A DNA stretch of 64,000 nt from Casimicrobiaceae bacterium. GTDB lineage: Bacteria; Pseudomonadota; Gammaproteobacteria; Burkholderiales; Casimicrobiaceae. Below the pieces are notes generated by a model. That model did not search any database and was not told where the DNA came from. It worked only from the letters and a program-made list of their open reading frames with translations. The DNA is taken from NCBI GenBank assembly GCA_025056355.1, contig JANWWI010000001.1, positions 1 to 64,000 of the forward strand, read 5' to 3'. Numbering within the stretch: position 1 is the stretch's first letter; each line of letters starts with the position of its first letter. Shown in pieces: positions 24,505 through 32,766 of the stretch. The position numbers and the translations under genes were made by a program.

Positions 24505-25419
24505 TTACCGCCTGAGCGCAGCGCAAGGGTCTGCGCGCTCGACCGCGGGGATGCGTTCGACGAGATCGTAGGCCGGCCCAAGCGTCGGGTCGGCTGGCGG
24601 CGGATCGACTTCGATCACGCCAACGGCTAGGCAGCGCGCGCGTTCAGGCAACCAGCGCGCAACCCCAAGGTCGCGGCGGGTGTGGCCGCTTCCGGCGATG
24701 AGCACGGCTGGGCGGCCGGCCGATGAGAGGGCGCGGGCCATCGTGGCATCGCGCGCCATTTGTAGGATGGCCAAACGCCGCGCCTGGGCGCGATCGATGA
24801 GTTTGCAGTGGCCCTCGTAGACGGCTTGGGTTTGTCCATCGAGGACACGCTCATCGATGCTCGGGGGTAGCGCTGCGCCGTACCAGCGGGCCAAGTGCGC
24901 AAGCCCATCCGTACCCTCGGCAGGCATCATCGAGCGCAGCGCCGCGCGCGAGAGGTTGCCTGCCACGATCGGCAGTTCATGCCGCAGCGCGAGCGCAATG
25001 AGCGGCTCATAGTGCGGCCACGGCCAGCGGGAAGCCGGCTGCACGGCCTCAAGCCAGCGCTTGGCATCGGGCACGGCACGCGCGCGAGCCTCGGCACTGG
25101 CCCGGTCGATGGCCGCTTGCTCTTCGAGGTGGAACTGCTCGAACACGAAGGCGGGACGTGCGCCAGCTTCGAGCACACGCTCGATCCAGCCCAGCCGCAG
25201 CCGATGCCCGTGGGCGTTGTCGTGGATTTCGCCCAAGAGCAGATACGCTCCGGCCAGGGCGGCTTGCGTAAGCGATACGGCGTGTTGCACCGACTGGGTG
25301 TCCTGTAGAGCCATTCGGGCCCTTGCCGAGGACGCGAGCAGCGACGCAAGCGCAAACCCGCCGAAGCTCTTGAGGAGCCCTCGGCGGCATGATGGGTCGA
25401 GCCGCTTAGCTGACAGCAT
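24505..25419 (-). CDS. ChaN-like haem-binding lipoprotein or exported protein
   Basis: 304 residues. The ChaN/DUF399 family binds haem and is iron-regulated. The N-terminus (CRRGLLKSFGGFALASLLASSARA) looks like an export signal. The family core has YLLLGEIHDNAHGHRLR with the putative haem ligand His, FVFEQFH, and LIAGSGHTRRDLGV near the C-terminus. The ATG at 25419 overlaps the end of hmuV by 14 nt. It is the last gene of the haem operon, and a gap of about 260 bp with no visible gene follows. Confidence 0.82.
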   Translation of the reverse strand: MLSAKRLDPSCRRGLLKSFGGFALASLLASSARARMALQDTQSVQHAVSLTQAALAGAYLLLGEIHDNAHGHRLRLGWIERVLEAGARPAFVFEQFHLEEQAAIDRASAEARARAVPDAKRWLEAVQPASRWPWPHYEPLIALALRHELPIVAGNLSRAALRSMMPAEGTDGLAHLARWYGAALPPSIDERVLDGQTQAVYEGHCKLIDRAQARRLAILQMARDATMARALSSAGRPAVLIAGSGHTRRDLGVARWLPERARCLAVGVIEVDPPPADPTLGPAYDLVERIPAVERADPCAALRR

Positions 25420-26227
25420 CAAGAACGATGATATGGGGCCGGCCTCCTTCGTGAGCGCAGACAAGCTGCACCTCCACATCGTAGACCGCCACAAGCCAGT
25501 GCCGGTTCACCATTGCCTCGACCGATCCCGCAGCAAGCAGCCGCCCGTCGCGCATCCAGGCGATTCGGTCGGCCCAGGCCGCAGCAAGGTTCACATCATG
25601 CAAGACGGCAAGCACCGCGATGCCGCGCTGGGCGGCGAAGCGGCGCACGCTGGCCAGCAGTTGCCGTTGATGCTTGAGATCGAGCGCTGCGGTTGGTTCA
25701 TCGAGAAACAGCGCGCATGGGCGCTCAGGCACCGCATCCCAAAGCTGCGCGAGCACCCGTGCCGCGTGCAGGCGCGCGCGCTCGCCGCCGGAGAGTGTGG
25801 TCACGCTGCGGTGCGCAAAGTCAAGAGTCTGGGTCTCGCGCAGTGCGGCTTCGACGATCGCGCAGTCGCGCTTACCTAGCACACCAGCGCCGAAGGGAAA
25901 GCGTCCCAGTGCGACGATCTCGGCGCCACGATAGGCGAAGGGGACCTCGATGCTCTGCGAGAGCACGGCGCGGCGTTGCGCAAGCTCGAGCGCGGGCCAC
26001 GCGGCCAGCGGCCGGTTGGCAAAGAGGATGCTGCCGGCATCGGGGGCGAGCTCCCCAGCGAGCGTGCGAAGAAGCGTGGATTTACCGGCCCCGTTCGGAC
26101 CGAGCAGCGCGAGGCACTCCCCGGGGGCAAGCCGCAGATCGACGTCTTGGATCAGCGCACGCCCGCCCCGGCGTACCGTAACGCCGTGGGCCTCGATCAG
26201 CGGATCGGCTTGCCTGTCAGACACCAT
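25406..26227 (-). CDS. hmuV: Haem ABC transporter ATP-binding protein HmuV
   Basis: 273 residues, the ATPase energising haem import. Walker A is LLGPNGAGKSTLLRTLAGEL, the signature is LSGGERARLHAARV, Walker B is CALFLDEPTAALD, and the H-loop is VLHDVNLAA. The ATG at 26227 is preferred; in-frame sequence upstream is antisense-like. It overlaps hmuU by 11 nt and chaN by 14 nt. Confidence 0.93.
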   Translation of the reverse strand: MVSDRQADPLIEAHGVTVRRGGRALIQDVDLRLAPGECLALLGPNGAGKSTLLRTLAGELAPDAGSILFANRPLAAWPALELAQRRAVLSQSIEVPFAYRGAEIVALGRFPFGAGVLGKRDCAIVEAALRETQTLDFAHRSVTTLSGGERARLHAARVLAQLWDAVPERPCALFLDEPTAALDLKHQRQLLASVRRFAAQRGIAVLAVLHDVNLAAAWADRIAWMRDGRLLAAGSVEAMVNRHWLVAVYDVEVQLVCAHEGGRPHIIVLDAVS

Positions 26228-27473
26228 GCAGCCCTCGCAGACCGCGTCGCAACAGCATGACGAAGAAGGGCACCCCAAGCAGCGCCGTCAGGATGCCGAT
26301 CGGTAGCTCCGCCGGCGCGGCGATTACACGGGCGACCGTGTCGGCGAGCACGAGCAGGATCGCCCCCAAGAGCGCCGAAGCCGGGATCAAGAGGCCGTGC
26401 GCCGGCCCGACGGCGAGCCGCACCATGTGCGGAGCCACGAGGCCGACGAAGCCGATGGCACCGGTGAAGGCGACTGCCGCGCCGGTGGCCATGAGTGCAA
26501 GCACGGTCACTTGCCGCTTGAGCCGTTCGACGTCCACGCCGAGCTGGAGCGCCTCGCGCTCCCCGAGCGCAAGGGCATCGAGCGCGCGCGCGAGCCGTGT
26601 GGCGAAGAGCGTGCAGGCGACCGCCACCGCCGCCATGCCCAGGGCAATGCCGGCATCGGCGCGCGCGAGCGAGCCGAGCGACCAGAAGGTCCATTCGCGG
26701 TTCTGGCTGTCGCTTGCGAGGTACAGCAATAGGCCAATGCCCGCGCCTGCGAGCGCGGTCATCGCAACACCTGCGAGCAGCATGCCAGTGATCGAGGTCT
26801 GGCCCTCATGACTTGCGAGGCGGCGGATCGCGAAAAGCACAAGCGCTCCGCCGACGAAGCCGGCAACCGGCAGGAGCCATGGCATGAACCCTGGGGCAAT
26901 GCGGTTCGCGATCGGTCCGCCGAGCACGATGACCGCGGCCGCGGCCAGTGCTGCACCCGAGGAGACACCAATCAGGCCGGCATCGGCGAGCGGGTTGCGA
27001 AAAAGGCCCTGGAGCAGCGCCCCCGATACCCCGAGCGCTGCGCCGACAGCGATGGCCATGAGCACACGAGGCAGCCGGATCGACCAGAGCACAGCCGCGT
27101 GCTGCGGCTCGACGAGGCTCGGCGTGTACTGCGTGAACAGCCCAAGCACCTGCGCGACCAGCGCTTCGAGCACCGCGAGCGCGGGGATGGCGTAGGCGCC
27201 GGTCATCGCGGCAAAGACAGCCGAGGCCGCAAGCGCGCAGGCAAGCGTCGGCAAGATGAGCCGGGCGTGACGCGGGGAAAGGTGAGCGGCCTCGGACACG
27301 CGCGCCTCGGGTGCAGCCACCTCCGACCGCGCGATCGGTCGGTTGAGCAAGCCCCGCCAGCCGACCGTGCGCAAGCGACGGGCGAGCGAAGCCGCTGGCG
27401 ATGCTTGTCCGGCGTGAGCATCCGGCCTGGGCAGGGTGTCGGCGCGTGGGGACATCAGCGGGCTTGCGGTCAT
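26217..27473 (-). CDS. hmuU: Haem ABC transporter permease HmuU
   Basis: 418 residues of the FecCD permease family, with about ten membrane helices from residue 70 on. Landmarks are SIRLPRVLMAIAVGAALGVSG, GVSSGAALAAA, WSLGSLARAD and GFVGLVAPHMVRLAVGP. The first 70 residues are a polar extension (about 70 longer than typical), so the true start may be an internal codon. It begins 5 bp after hmuT. Confidence 0.92.
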   Translation of the reverse strand: MTASPLMSPRADTLPRPDAHAGQASPAASLARRLRTVGWRGLLNRPIARSEVAAPEARVSEAAHLSPRHARLILPTLACALAASAVFAAMTGAYAIPALAVLEALVAQVLGLFTQYTPSLVEPQHAAVLWSIRLPRVLMAIAVGAALGVSGALLQGLFRNPLADAGLIGVSSGAALAAAAVIVLGGPIANRIAPGFMPWLLPVAGFVGGALVLFAIRRLASHEGQTSITGMLLAGVAMTALAGAGIGLLLYLASDSQNREWTFWSLGSLARADAGIALGMAAVAVACTLFATRLARALDALALGEREALQLGVDVERLKRQVTVLALMATGAAVAFTGAIGFVGLVAPHMVRLAVGPAHGLLIPASALLGAILLVLADTVARVIAAPAELPIGILTALLGVPFFVMLLRRGLRGLHGV

Positions 27474-27478
27474 GGGGG

Positions 27479-28354
27479 TTAGCTGGACGTGCGACGTGAC
27501 GGGTCACGAAGCGCCAGAGCTAGGTCGCGCGCGGCCTGTGGCGTGCGTGGCCCGAAGCCGAGCAGCAGCAGCGCATCGAGCGCGACCACATGCCGGGCGC
27601 GACCGGCGGGCGTGAGCCCGAGACCGGGCAGCGCAAGGAGCTTGTCGAGCCCGCCGAGGGCTGTCACGCCCTGGGTCGTGGTGAGAATCACATCGGGCGC
27701 GGCCGCAGCGGCGGCTTCCGGCGTGAGGGGGCGGTAGCCAGTGAAGCCGCCGGTGGCGAGGCGCCCGCCTGCGAGCTCGATCATCGCGGCGGCGGCCGTG
27801 TCCTGCCCCGCGATTTGCGGCGAGCCGCCATGCGAGAGGATGAAGAGCACACGCGGGGAGGGGCCTTTCGCCTCTGCGAGCGTGCGGCGCAACGCCTCGA
27901 GCTCGCTGGCGATGCGCTCATCGAGGAGGCGGCCTTCGCGTTCGCGTCCGAGGAGTGCTGCCACTCGGCGCACCCGCTCGCGCAGGGCCTCGATCGTGTG
28001 CCCCGCCGGCAAGGTCTCCACGCGCACGCCCGCCGCAGTGAGCTGTTTCATGACGGTCGGCGGGCCGGCTTCGACCGTGGCCAGCACCAGGTCGGGTTTG
28101 AGCGCGAGGATGCCCTCGGCTGAAAGCGCACGCAGGTAGCCGACCTTTGGCAGGCGGGTGGCTGCCTCCGGATAAAGGCTGGTCGTATCCACGGCCACAA
28201 GCGAGCGCTCCGCGCCAAGCGCATAGACGATCTCGGTGATCGAACCGGCTACGCTCACCACACGCGCCGGGGCGGGCTGGGCCCGCACGGCCTTTGCGAA
28301 CCACGTAGCCCCAAGCGCAAGGCTCAACCGCCCGAGCGCAGCCCGACGGTTCAT
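27479..28354 (-). CDS. hmuT: Periplasmic haem-binding protein HmuT
   Basis: 291 residues, the cluster A-2-type substrate-binding protein that carries haem to HmuUV. Signal peptide: RAALGRLSLALGATWFAKAVRAQP. Core: RVVSVAGSITEIVYALGAE, SLYPEAATRLPKVGYLRALS and the haem-binding Tyr region GGFTGYRPLTPEA. The ATG overlaps the hmuS stop by 4 nt (ATGA). Confidence 0.93.
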   Translation of the reverse strand: MNRRAALGRLSLALGATWFAKAVRAQPAPARVVSVAGSITEIVYALGAERSLVAVDTTSLYPEAATRLPKVGYLRALSAEGILALKPDLVLATVEAGPPTVMKQLTAAGVRVETLPAGHTIEALRERVRRVAALLGREREGRLLDERIASELEALRRTLAEAKGPSPRVLFILSHGGSPQIAGQDTAAAAMIELAGGRLATGGFTGYRPLTPEAAAAAAPDVILTTTQGVTALGGLDKLLALPGLGLTPAGRARHVVALDALLLLGFGPRTPQAARDLALALRDPSRRTSS

Positions 28355-29484
28355 GCCGAAAGCCTCCCTTCCCGTTCGATATCGGCGGCAAGCGTGCGCC
28401 AGTCTTCCCGCTCCGGCACGCCCGGTTTGCGCTTACCGAAGAACAGCGCGATCGTTTCGCCGGCCAGATCGAAAAGTTCGAGCGAGGTGACGACACCGTC
28501 GGCCGTGGGCTTGCGGACGATCCAGGCCTGATTGATCAAATCCTCACGTAGATGCAGGTTGAAGAGCGGGTCCATGACGTTGACCCACGGCCCGAGGCGC
28601 TGGATGTTTGCGACCGCTCCGGTGTGGATCTGGATGCAGCCGGGGTTGCCGACAAAGACCATGATCTCGAGCCCGCGCCGCGCGGCCTCCTCGAGCAGGC
28701 GACCGGCGCTGCCGGGCGCGACCGGTGTCGTGAACTGCCCTTGCGCGACCGCCATCGCGCGCGTGCGCGAAAGCCCGAAGCGTTTGAGCAGCCCAAAGAA
28801 CTCGTGCGTATCCTGAAGATTTGACCAGGCGCGGAGAAATTCTTTGAGGTCCGCACTGTCGGGCTCTGAATCCTCCTGCGCCGGTTCGTACTCCGGCAGT
28901 TCGGCTACCCAGGTGGGGCGCTGATCCTCAGCGGTGTAGAGCTCGGCGAGTTCGAGCAGTGCCGCGCGGTCGGTCGCCGGGCGCTCGAAGACCTTGTGCA
29001 CCGCCGTGCCGTCGGCGTCGTAGAACTGTAGCGACAGCCGTTCGCCGTCAGCTTGCGCCTCGCGTACGAGGAAGGCTTCTTTCCAGTGCTTGTAGAAGAT
29101 GCGCAGATCGATGTCGGGCCCGAGCACGAGGCCAACATGGGCTTTCTCGCTCGCCTCCTCGTAGACACCGATGCGCTCGTGCACAGCCGCCTCGTTGCGG
29201 GTAAGGGCCATGAGCGGCCCGCAGGCCTTGAGCCCCTCGATAAGCCGCGGCGCATCGGCGGCGCGCAGGCGCGTGGCGCGAAGCGGAGCTTCGGCACCCA
29301 CGTGCAAGGCGACCGCTTCGCCCTCAGAGAGGCCGATGGCGGCGGCGGCTTCGCGCTGCCGCAGCTTGCGTTCGGCCTTGATGCGCGCGTAGTCGCGGCG
29401 CAGGCTGGCGATGTCGCGCCCCGCGCGCGGCTGCGGGACCTCAGGGGCGCTTGTCGGATTCGGTTCAACGGTGATCGTGCTCAT
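28351..29484 (-). CDS. hmuS: Haem-degrading or chaperone protein HmuS
   Basis: 377 residues, a cytoplasmic haem-handling protein of the HemS/HmuS/PhuS family. It is made of two related repeats: residues about 25-185 (first half: LRRDYARIKAERKLRQREAA) and residues about 200-370 (second half: DTHEFFGLLKRFGLSRTRAM). The His of DTHEF is the expected proximal haem ligand. GGAGA lies 5 nt before the ATG at 29484. It is the first enzyme-like gene after the receptor and small protein. Confidence 0.93.
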   Translation of the reverse strand: MSTITVEPNPTSAPEVPQPRAGRDIASLRRDYARIKAERKLRQREAAAAIGLSEGEAVALHVGAEAPLRATRLRAADAPRLIEGLKACGPLMALTRNEAAVHERIGVYEEASEKAHVGLVLGPDIDLRIFYKHWKEAFLVREAQADGERLSLQFYDADGTAVHKVFERPATDRAALLELAELYTAEDQRPTWVAELPEYEPAQEDSEPDSADLKEFLRAWSNLQDTHEFFGLLKRFGLSRTRAMAVAQGQFTTPVAPGSAGRLLEEAARRGLEIMVFVGNPGCIQIHTGAVANIQRLGPWVNVMDPLFNLHLREDLINQAWIVRKPTADGVVTSLELFDLAGETIALFFGKRKPGVPEREDWRTLAADIEREGRLSA

Positions 29485-29535: not shown

Positions 29536-29853
29536 TCAATGCAGCGTCGAATGCGGCGTTCTGGCTGGCACCGCATCTGTTTCGGGGTTCGGGTCGGCGG
29601 GCGCGGTCTTTTCGCCCGGGGCGCTGAGCCGTAGTCGCCGGGCATCCCAAACCCGAGCGAGGTTCGAGCACAGCAACCGGAACGGCGGCGACAGATGCGG
29701 ACAGCTTGCAAGCCGATTCAGATTGCTGGTGATCCTGGCGGCAACGAGCGGGCAGCTGCACTCACTTGCATGCGTAAGCAGCGCAAGCGTGCCGGCGAGC
29801 ACCGGCTCCACTTGGCCGGGATCGAGCTCCGGGGACAGATCGTCTTGCTTCAT
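29536..29853 (-). CDS. Small Cys-Pro-containing protein in the haem operon
   Basis: 105 residues. Its ATG overlaps the receptor's stop (ATGA). I do not recognise a named family, though an unannotated small gene at this place is known to me from related haem loci. Visible features: a helical N-terminal half (VEPVLAGTLALLTHASE), four cysteines in ECSCP, SCPHL and LLCSN, and a disordered Pro-rich tail. Two Cys-Pro dipeptides, CSCPL and SCPHL, resemble haem-regulatory motifs. Placement between the TonB receptor and HmuS suggests a role in haem sensing or delivery. No signal peptide. Confidence 0.6.
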   Translation of the reverse strand: MKQDDLSPELDPGQVEPVLAGTLALLTHASECSCPLVAARITSNLNRLASCPHLSPPFRLLCSNLARVWDARRLRLSAPGEKTAPADPNPETDAVPARTPHSTLH

Positions 29854-32138
29854 CACTTGAACTCCCAGCGAAGCGTGGCTGCAACGGCGCGGCGCGACTG
29901 TGTGTAGGCATCGAGGATCGGCGAGTTGGCCGCAACCCCGCGCACATCGGTCCACTCCCAGTACTTTTTGTCGGTCAGGTTGCGCACCCCGACGACGAGT
30001 CGGCCCTGCGGATGAAACTGCCAGTAGGCGTCGAGGTCGAGATGGGTGGATGCCGGCGGGAGAAACTGGCTTGCTGTGGGCGCAAGCGTGTCGGTGACAT
30101 CTGCGGCGCGCTTGCGCGCTGAGTGCACCGCGCGCAGCGTGGCGCCGTAGGCTTCACTCGGCGCGCGCCACTCGAGCGAGGCGATTGCCCGCAGCGGGTT
30201 CACGCTGTTGAGCGGCGAGCGCGTGCTGCCGGTGATCTGATCGCCCTTGGTGTAGGCGATGCCGAAACGCGAGCGAAAGCCCATGCCCCAGTCGACCCGG
30301 GCGCTTGCCTCGGCGCCGCGGAGGCGCACACCCGAGAGGTTGACGAACTGAAACGTGGTCGGGTTGGCGCGCGTGCCGTTGCCGCTCACGACGACCTGTT
30401 CGATAAAGTCGCGATAGCGGCCATAAAACGCGGCCAGGTCGAAAGCCACCGGTGTGGCCGAGGACTTGATGCCGACTTCGACCGTGCGGTTGGTCTCGGG
30501 CTTGAGGTTGGGGTTGGCGATCGTCTGGTAGGGTGCGGCGCTTGTGAGGTTCGTGAAGCCCTGGTTGACCTGGTGCGGCTGCGGCGCACGAAAACCCTGC
30601 GCGAAGTTTGCATACGCCGTGTGGCGTGGCGCGAACTTCCAGACGAGCCCGAGCTTGGGCGACACGCGATCACCCGAGGTGCCCTTTGGGTTGGCGCCCT
30701 GGTAGAGCGGGCTCGCCTCCGGCGCGAGCCGGTAGCGGTCGTAGCGCAGGGCCGGGATCACGAGCAGGCGGCCGTCGCGGTCGAGCGCGATCTCATCCTG
30801 GACGAAGGCGCCGAAGGTGCGAAACGACGTGTCCGGGAAGCGCTTGAGCGGAAAGGTCTCGCCGGTCGGCGGAAAGTTGCCGTCGGTGAGTGCCACGTAG
30901 TCGGCATCGATCGCGTCGAAGCCGTAGACCACGCGGTGCGTGAGCCCGCCCGCGGTGAAGGTTTTCTCGGCATCGGCGGAGATGCCGATGAAGCGCTCGT
31001 CGTAGTGCTGGTCGCGCAGGCGGATGGTGCCATTCGAGCGGAACTCGTAGGTCACCTGCCGGTTGCCGCCGCTTTGCGCGTAGAGCCCGGCGGTCAGGCG
31101 ATCGGCCCAAGGTGAACCGAGGTCGGTGTCGACAAAGCGCAGCATGCCGCGATCGCGTCGCACCGTGTCGTAGCCGACCGCGCGGTCGATCGTGAGTGTG
31201 GCCGGGTTGGTGCTGCGCGGCTGAATCGAGGTGAGGAGCTCCACATCGAAATCGGTACGCGTGGTCTCGAAGGTCGCTTCCAGCCGACGGGCCGGACTCA
31301 CCGCGTAGTGCCACTTGAAGAGCCCTGAGCTCGTCTGTTGGTCGGTCGGGTTCGCGGCGGTACGGTTCGCACCCACAGCAGTGTTGGTGCCGAAGTTCTC
31401 CGCCTCGTGACCGCGTCGATGCGCCGCGACCGCGAGCAGGCGGCTCTCGTCGAAGCGAGACGCCACGGTCGCGGTCACCGTGTAGCTGTCGTCCTCGCTG
31501 TCGTAGCCGCCCGAGAGCGCCGCGTAGAACGGCCCGCGCGTGCGCCGGAGCAGCTCCTCCGGCGTGCGGGTGAAGAAGCTCACCGCGCCAGCCAACCCGT
31601 CGCTGCCGTAGAGCGCCGAGGCCGGTCCGCGCAGGATTTCCACGCGCGAGATCGTGGCCAGGTCGATGTAGTCGCCCCGGCCCATGTTGGTGGCGCCGAA
31701 GGAGTAGGCATTCGGGACTCGCAAGCCGTCCACTTGGATCAGCACGCGGTTGCCTTCGATGCCGCGGATGTTGAAGCCCGCGTCGCGATCGCGCCCGAGC
31801 CCGCTGCCGGCGGCGGAAAAACGCGCCGGCGCTCGACGTACGGTGACGCCCGGCTCGTCGGCGACCAGATCCTTGATCGACTGCACCTGGCGCTTTTCGA
31901 TCTCCTCGGCATCGATCAGGCGCACCTGGGCTGGCGTTTCCTCATCGCTTCGCTCGCTGCGCGCCCCGGAGACCACGACCGGCTGCACACGCTGGGCGAG
32001 CTGGGCCTGTTCGAGCGCGAGATCGGCCTGAGCAACGCTCGGCGCTGAGCCGGCGAGCGTGGCTACGGCGAGCGATACAGCGCAAGCCACGCGGCGCGGG
32101 GAGGAAGCAGGAGAAGGGCAGACGACAAAAGTCAACAT
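29853..32138 (-). CDS. hmuR: TonB-dependent haem receptor HmuR
   Basis: About 761 residues. It is an outer-membrane 22-strand barrel for haem or haemoprotein. Signal peptide: PRRVACAVSLAVATLAGSAPSVAQA. Plug domain: ETPAQVRLIDAEEIEKRQV, NIRGIEGNRVLIQVDGLRVP and VEILRGPASALYGSDGLAGA. The FRAP/NPNL signature of haem receptors is visible as GFRAPQPHQVNQGF and IANPNLKPETN. The start is uncertain: ATGs at 32138 and 32159 come from a tandem 21-bp duplication, and neither has a good Shine-Dalgarno sequence. It is the first gene of the operon after a Fur-controlled promoter. Confidence 0.9.
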   Translation of the reverse strand: MLTFVVCPSPASSPRRVACAVSLAVATLAGSAPSVAQADLALEQAQLAQRVQPVVVSGARSERSDEETPAQVRLIDAEEIEKRQVQSIKDLVADEPGVTVRRAPARFSAAGSGLGRDRDAGFNIRGIEGNRVLIQVDGLRVPNAYSFGATNMGRGDYIDLATISRVEILRGPASALYGSDGLAGAVSFFTRTPEELLRRTRGPFYAALSGGYDSEDDSYTVTATVASRFDESRLLAVAAHRRGHEAENFGTNTAVGANRTAANPTDQQTSSGLFKWHYAVSPARRLEATFETTRTDFDVELLTSIQPRSTNPATLTIDRAVGYDTVRRDRGMLRFVDTDLGSPWADRLTAGLYAQSGGNRQVTYEFRSNGTIRLRDQHYDERFIGISADAEKTFTAGGLTHRVVYGFDAIDADYVALTDGNFPPTGETFPLKRFPDTSFRTFGAFVQDEIALDRDGRLLVIPALRYDRYRLAPEASPLYQGANPKGTSGDRVSPKLGLVWKFAPRHTAYANFAQGFRAPQPHQVNQGFTNLTSAAPYQTIANPNLKPETNRTVEVGIKSSATPVAFDLAAFYGRYRDFIEQVVVSGNGTRANPTTFQFVNLSGVRLRGAEASARVDWGMGFRSRFGIAYTKGDQITGSTRSPLNSVNPLRAIASLEWRAPSEAYGATLRAVHSARKRAADVTDTLAPTASQFLPPASTHLDLDAYWQFHPQGRLVVGVRNLTDKKYWEWTDVRGVAANSPILDAYTQSRRAVAATLRWEFK

Positions 32139-32172
32139 GAAGCAGCGAGCAGTCAACATGAAGCAGCGAACA
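32131..32172. repeat. Tandem 21-bp duplication of the hmuR start region
   Basis: Two adjacent 21-bp units (32131-32151 and 32152-32172) differ at one base. Each contains a CAT, so each supplies an ATG and the coding start MLT on the minus strand, in the same frame. The duplication adds seven residues and creates two equivalent start sites. Confidence 0.85.
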
Positions 32173-32182
32173 AAAAGCAGGT

Positions 32183-32198
32183 CCAAAGGGCCCTTTGG
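32183..32198. promoter_or_regulatory. Perfect 16-bp palindrome in the hmuR leader
   Basis: CCAAAGGGCCCTTTGG lies between the Fur-box promoter and the hmuR start. It could be a dimeric regulator's operator or a short RNA hairpin. No known factor was matched. Confidence 0.45.
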
Positions 32199-32327
32199 GG
32201 GGAGACAAAGACCGCCTCGCTGGCTAGCGTCAAGGAGTAACCGCATCGCTTGCGGGCAGCGCAGACCTCACGCCCCGGCAGCGATGCCGAGGCGTCAGGC
32301 GGTGGGTGCCGAGCGCCCACAAAGCGA

Positions 32328-32356
32328 AGCATAATACGAATGATTCGCAATTGCAA
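32328..32356 (-). promoter_or_regulatory. Fur-box promoter of the haem operon
   Basis: On the minus strand TTGCAA (32356-32351), a 17-bp spacer and TATGCT (32333-32328) form a sigma-70-type promoter. The spacer contains CGAATCATTCG, a near-perfect dyad resembling a Fur box (extended site about 32333-32351). Fur with iron would block the promoter, so expression when iron is scarce is expected. The hemP gene lies on the other side and may share control. Confidence 0.7.
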
Positions 32357-32487: not shown

Positions 32488-32766
32488 ATGAATTCGAACC
32501 ACAAGGGGTACGCTCACACCGCGAAGCAGCTTCGCGGTACGAAGCCAAATGCAAAGCGCTCGCCGAGCCCCGTTCGGTGGGGTTTGTCTGCGGGCGAGTC
32601 CGCGCAGGCTTTGCCCGCCTCGCCGGTTGCGCTTGCGCTCGAGCGGTGCGTAAGAAGCGAAGAATTGCTCGGCTCTGCCAAGCGTCTCACCATCGAGCAT
32701 GACGGCAAGCGCTACGTGCTGCGGCTGACGAAGCGCAAACGGCTGCTGCTGACGGCGGCGGAATAG
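32488..32766 (+). CDS. hemP: HemP/HmuP family haem-uptake regulator
   Basis: 92 residues. The last third (ELLGSAKRLTIEHDGKRY and LRLTKRKRLLLT) matches HemP/HmuP, a small protein needed for full expression of haem receptor genes in related bacteria. The first 55 residues are a basic, Ser/Pro-rich extension beyond the usual 40-60 aa family size. The ATG at 32488 is chosen; GGAG lies 10-13 bases upstream. The gene is divergent from hmuR across the Fur-box region. Confidence 0.75.
   Translation: MNSNHKGYAHTAKQLRGTKPNAKRSPSPVRWGLSAGESAQALPASPVALALERCVRSEELLGSAKRLTIEHDGKRYVLRLTKRKRLLLTAAE

Follow-up and report, generated by a model that had tools for sequence, protein, structure and literature searches.

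Recurrent linkage of a previously undescribed small-protein family, probably helical, to haem-uptake genes and hemP in Burkholderiales

The haem-uptake locus and its small protein

The window analysed here is a 64,000-nucleotide stretch of a Casimicrobiaceae bacterium contig (JANWWI010000001.1) and contains a haem-uptake locus. The receptor gene of this locus (nt. 29853–32246, reverse strand) encodes a haem/haemoglobin TonB-dependent receptor, HmuR-like, which scored above cut-off with both TIGR01786 (377.5 bits) and TIGR01785 (363.0 bits) and also displayed the Pfam domains PF00593 and PF07715. It is followed on the same strand by a gene with an ATG start encoding a small protein of 105 a.a. 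(nt. 29536–29853), referred to here as X, which was recognised from its ORF call, translation, homologues, and conservation. Further along this strand lie the genes for the haem-degrading, HemS/ChuX-like protein HmuS (nt. 28351–29484; PF05171, 4.7e-81, and PF06228, 2.5e-52), the periplasmic binding protein HmuT (nt. 27479–28354; PF01497), the FecCD-type permease HmuU (nt. 26217–27473; PF01032), and the haem ABC ATPase HmuV (nt. 25406–26278; NF010068, above cut-off). As read from the sequence, the likely start of hmuS is the ATG at nt. 29484, which is preceded by AAGGAG and lies 51 nt past the X stop codon. A HemP/HmuP domain (nt. 32647–32754, forward strand; PF10636, 2.0e-11, above cut-off) is encoded divergently from the receptor operon and 2.8 kb from X, which itself sits between the receptor gene and hmuS.

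Between the receptor gene and hemP we noted a Fur-box-like palindrome (nt. ~32332–32354), recognised by its similarity to strings that we take to be representative of Fur boxes. Three of the four strings presumed to be such boxes find their best match in the window at this palindrome (13–15 of 19 bases), while the fourth matches it at 12 of 19 bases, which is not its best in the window. Iron (Fur) control of the receptor-X operon is inferred from this site.

The start of X overlaps the stop codon of the receptor gene (TGATG, where the A of the ATG is the final base of the TGA), and the two products are very likely translated together. Homologues of X occupy the same genomic place in two genomes of the same genus (52% and 58% identity), which puts the status of X as a real gene beyond chance. 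The original prediction of a 105-residue reading frame at the receptor stop, with hmuS downstream, is thus confirmed, as are the two Cys-Pro pairs that it described (C34-P35-L36 and C51-P52-H53) and the two further cysteines (C32 and C62). Its proposal that X has no signal peptide agrees with our own inspection by eye, in which no N-terminal hydrophobic stretch was visible. The protein is laid out as a conserved core (residues ~14–72), a lineage-specific tail (residues 73–103), and a C-terminal Leu-His, and both W69 and the final His, hallmarks of the family described below, are present in the window protein.

Extent of the family and relation to known families

Profile searches show that X belongs to a family of small and probably helical proteins that is as yet undescribed. 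A single-sequence search of 60 genomes returned matches in five, one of which is the genome of the window itself; among 16 other genomes of the genus, two gave matches (E = 1.7e-17 and 2.4e-17), and X was not found in the remaining 14 searched. A five-row profile matched 11 of 64 genomes of the bacterial family (two of these weakly, one of which was a false frame) and detected X in at least 45 of 399 genomes of the order. Using a 49-row profile, which includes members from the sampled genomes picked by sequence and not by neighbourhood, X was found in at least 59 of 399 genomes of the order (at least 45 of them at E < 1e-9) and in at least 27 of 369 genomes of the class, one of the latter being a RecN frame. 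The counts for order and class are lower bounds, given that a maximum of 12 or 13 first-look candidates were scored per genome. In its own genome, the window protein scored 3.7e-32 against profile A1 and 4.9e-21 against profile A2, both of which contain it as a row. The same genome encodes another, weakly matching X-like protein (G000:C66:27982-28176; L151, E = 5.5e-5), with a DCPRLAAAILLHLKAL segment and no iron gene detected nearby. From named genome contigs, 99 relatives were found and the best 80 of the 99 were kept, among which are many Comamonadaceae (Hydrogenophaga, Acidovorax, Paracidovorax, Polaromonas, and Ramlibacter), Thiomonas, and others.

The homologue set (n = 161) comprised the window protein, 54 and 26 loci around the genome-search matches, and the 80 named loci, and an 18-bit score cut removed none of the 161. 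Secondary copies in G392, G158, G017, and G111 were left out, as were several order matches (such as G051, G226, and G045) and a lipoprotein frame (L016) that is one of the 11 family matches. Reduction at 85% core identity gave 119 non-redundant members, a step that also drops copies of genomes fetched twice (e.g., L044/L154, L045/L155, and L070/L231). One of the 119 (L153) is the RecN reading frame (G600), and it was excluded from the tree and the ligand-combination set (118 members). We also noted a separate X lineage of the window's bacterial family (L046–L051, L165, and L188), in which a ClpB gene and a LysR-type regulator lie near several of the loci (by eye) and where L050 carries another X-like ORF immediately behind X.

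No family of weight was recovered when the window protein and 49 members were compared to Pfam, NCBIfam, and PHROGs, the best of the scattered single matches being PF04343 (2.6e-3, one member) and phrog_29929 (3.8e-4, two members). A Pfam scan of the window protein gave nothing at E ≤ 1, PF10636 included, and PF10636 was likewise absent from the 24 families listed for the 49 members; together with the separate HemP in the window, the lack of a PF10636 match rules out X as HemP/HmuP. Assignment as a HmuS/ChuX-type haem-handling protein was also rejected, given that X carries neither PF05171 nor PF06228, both of which are found in the next gene. A profile search of the PDB gave 25 weak matches (best E = 0.0016), mostly to helical proteins, many of them designed by name but also HMG boxes. 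The window protein and five further members gave no match when used as tblastn queries against plasmids, and the window protein also gave none in viral contigs. Similarly, no description of an X-like protein was found among the matches listed in the open-licence literature.

Gene neighbourhoods of X

Neighbouring genes were identified by tblastn with seeds for the window receptor, HmuS, HmuT, HmuU, and HmuV, as well as HemP, TonB, ExbB, ExbD, Bfr, Bfd, and others; seeds beyond the window genes came from the X loci themselves, and some loci end at contig ends. X lies between a haem receptor gene and hmuS in 17 of the 119 members and beside only one of these two in a further 8. It is found just after hemP in 18, near other iron genes in 19, and near a peroxiredoxin or small CxxC protein only in 5, while none of these genes was detected near the remaining 52. 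Some Acidovorax, Polaromonas, Hydrogenophaga, and Paracidovorax genomes repeat the receptor-X-hmuS order, which supports the coupling to haem genes; as X is also unnamed in Pfam, NCBIfam, and PHROGs, the original description of an unnamed small protein coupled to haem-uptake genes is borne out. Other members of the same genera carry X elsewhere, such as beside Bfd/Bfr in several Hydrogenophaga. With many members found beside hemP, tonB-exbB-exbD, Bfr/Bfd, or no detected iron gene, the X family is not haem-specific, and by eye some members adjoin a cytochrome c peroxidase-like gene, ClpB/LysR, or ordinary metabolic genes.

Whole-genome counts, which are independent of gene calling, agree with this sorting of loci. 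Among the 399 genomes of the order, HmuS was found in 62, X in at least 59, and both in 15, and in 11 of these 15 the two lie within 1.5 kb of each other. HemP was detected in 51 of the 59 X genomes versus 26 of 80 genomes from that order in which X was not matched (raw counts, in which kinship is ignored). The hemP gene is no more than 4 kb from X in 33 of the 59 (25 of 45 where the X match has E < 1e-9) and no more than 500 bp away in 22 of the 59, and several weak X matches (E = 1e-5 to 1e-3) also adjoin hemP. Given that 8 of the 59 X genomes have no detectable HemP and that no X was detected beside hmuS in 51 of the 62 HmuS genomes, neither partner is obligatory for X. ExbD was left out of the linkage counts as uninformative, being present in all 59 X genomes and in several copies per genome.

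On the family tree (118 rows and 66 columns; poorly resolved, with the bootstrap not settled), the receptor-X-hmuS place requires 10 changes, at least 5 of which are forced by strongly supported branches. These 10 changes indicate that several lineages acquired or retained the linkage to haem genes, rather than all inheriting a single accident.

Two further small proteins were seen after X. The first is a Cys-x-x-Cys protein (GVVADVEHCPSCNLFHLNVG-like) encoded close after X in several loci, at places relative to the X match of 282–551 (L085), 267–536 (L071), 211–483 (L073), 196–465 (L084), and 327–461 (L131). Of six such proteins read, five share the terminal His of X (L073 and L084 being near relatives), and those of L135 and L146 end in Asn. 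The second is a short, coiled-coil-like protein (EHxxLxRHxGxLQ...RLRAxLxxxRTxxLW), noted by eye after X in L156, L162, L167, L172, L190, L199, and L203, which are loci of several Comamonadaceae and relatives; a cytochrome c peroxidase-like gene precedes X in two of these (L162 and L167, by eye).

Conserved residues and the possible role of X

The family shares a conserved hydrophobic core, with W69 present in 117 of the 119 members, L25 in 116, and L45 in 114. Unexpectedly, 90 of the 119 members, including all 17 receptor-X-hmuS members, have His or Gln as the final residue, as against 22 of 491 longer coding-like ORFs from loci L044–L097 and L128–L153, where the comparison ORFs are longer than X. 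The trend is weaker among X proteins adjacent to hemP (10/18). Both the final codon (CAC, CAT, CAA, or CAG) and the stop codon (TGA, TAA, or TAG) vary, so an overlap with the next start codon does not by itself explain the His/Gln end.

Aside from the core, a Cys in the loop at residues 30–37 is found in 15 of the 17 receptor-X-hmuS members and all eight members at partial haem loci. Because most haem loci have kept it, some lineages may use the loop Cys for haem, metal, or redox input, and a weaker ligand or redox role is possible for it. More specifically, the loop Cys and the recurrent Cys/His residues at positions 34, 44, 51, and 62 may bind iron, zinc, or an Fe-S cluster, or form a thiol redox switch, by which X would sense the iron or oxidant state. 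Such a role would suit neighbours such as peroxiredoxin, Bfr, and Bfd, and the loop Cys, His44, His51, and Cys62 do occur together in 10 of 118 members; however, the loop Cys is missing in 40 of the 119 and there is no fixed ligand set, with 23 combinations of Cys or His/Asn/other at the four sites among the 118 members, and we consider this explanation unlikely. The same 23 combinations led us to reject a fixed metal site as a trait of the family.

The original prediction also suggested haem sensing via the two Cys-Pro pairs, whereby X of this lineage would bind haem and report cytoplasmic haem to HmuS or a regulator. Cys-Pro is described as the first haem-regulatory motif to be recognised (PMC11442138), and the window protein, coupled to a haem receptor, has two such pairs, the first followed by Leu. 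The site 1 pair recurs in L060 and in three Hydrogenophaga receptor-X-hmuS loci, as well as in L064, L067, L080, L085, and L091, which have one of the two neighbours. Against this, shuffling the window protein (105 residues with 4 Cys and 13 Pro) gave two or more Cys-Pro pairs in 7.4% of 100,000 trials, so two pairs as such are not beyond chance and would carry meaning only if conserved. Conservation among homologues at the same locus, which had been named beforehand as the check able to refute a haem sensor, came out against it. Among the 17 receptor-X-hmuS members, the site 1 Cys-Pro is present in 5, Cys51-Pro52 in 3, and Cys62 in 4; Cys51-Pro52 at haem loci is confined to the window protein and two same-genus relatives, the same-genus relatives L044 and L045 lack the site 1 pair, and the window protein alone has both pairs. 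In the 119 members as a whole, a Cys-Pro in the 30–37 loop occurs in 28, any loop Cys in 79, and Cys62 in 39, while Cys51-Pro52 is seen in 5 compared to His51-Pro52 in 47. The loop itself reads, for example, ACCDSH in Acidovorax facilis (L208) and DCPHR or DCPNR in two of three Hydrogenophaga members. Haem ligation by Cys-Pro is not required in the X family as a whole. Haem sensing by two pairs could exist only as an addition specific to one lineage, and we regard it as improbable even for the lineage of the window.

Least probable of all is that X is a general helper with no role in iron, its place at iron loci being incidental, which would account for the 52 members without a detected iron gene nearby but not for the proximity to HmuS (11/15) and hemP (22/59), which on informal grounds is unlike random placement in megabase genomes, nor for the weak X matches that adjoin hemP too.

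What has been kept across the family is the core and tail rather than a haem or metal site, and this, together with the hemP linkage, favours a partner-contacting accessory factor. We therefore put forward, at roughly even chances, that X is an accessory cytosolic factor of HemP/Fur-type iron acquisition that acts by protein contact. X would be a soluble, cytoplasmic, helical protein, often encoded with haem or iron acquisition genes (above all at hemP and the receptor-hmuS junction) and made alongside the receptor under iron limitation. It may bind a partner protein via the conserved hydrophobic helical core and the C-terminal Leu/Val-His/Gln tail, with candidate partners being HemP, HmuS, or a tail-reading protein, and this binding could tune the output of the receptor or of iron handling. 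The mostly helical PDB matches and the Fur-box-like site upstream speak for such an accessory factor, whereas the 52 members without a detected iron gene, and the fact that HemP and HmuS are not obligatory, speak against it.

A more specific form of the accessory-factor reading, which we offer tentatively and hold to be doubtful, is that in Burkholderiales and their relatives X represents an undescribed partner of the HemP/Fur switch for iron acquisition. The Leu/Val-His/Gln tail would be read by a common partner, and the variable Cys loop could provide haem, metal, or redox input as an option. The unrelated small CxxC protein beside some X genes likewise has a tail ending in His.

As a small protein that many Burkholderiales encode either between the receptor gene and hmuS or immediately behind hemP, X would be an overlooked part of iron control. 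The definition of the family, its C-terminal motif, and the culturable named genera that carry it make X directly testable.

Several known systems bear comparison with the X locus. Proteins with Cys-Pro haem-regulatory motifs (such as Irr) are similar in that the window protein has two Cys-Pro pairs, but in X these are not conserved across the family and no named family is matched. The chuPRSTUV operon of C. violaceum shares receptor, HmuS-type, ABC transporter, and HemP-type genes with the window, but differs in that it is described with six genes and no X (PMC9131926). The hemP region of B. cenocepacia likewise has hemP followed by iron-related genes, although there the sRNA BrrF comes next, with either the ftr cluster or a heme-binding protein behind it (PMC7377471). 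In the S. maltophilia operon hemP-hemA-smlt0796-smlt0797, an unnamed gene also lies directly after the haem receptor gene, a likeness of gene order; Smlt0796 has no predicted signal peptide, and deleting either smlt0796 or smlt0797 singly had no significant effect on hemin acquisition (PMC9241770). Should Smlt0796 be an X protein, X would be dispensable for hemin use under the conditions of that study, which would count against a direct role in transport.

Loci of this kind already have a known small haem-binding regulator, HemP/HmuP, which is distinct from X. Its members are described as small, haem-binding proteins that regulate the expression of the haem receptor or haem-uptake genes (PMC9131926, PMC11442138). 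X resembles HemP/HmuP (PF10636) in being a small protein of haem-uptake loci, often with hemP directly upstream, but it differs in sequence, has no PF10636 match, and in the window is accompanied by a separate HemP. The mode of action of HemP is presented in the same sources as disputed, being transcriptional in some species and post-transcriptional in others (PMC9131926, PMC11442138), and a linked partner such as X could help explain this.
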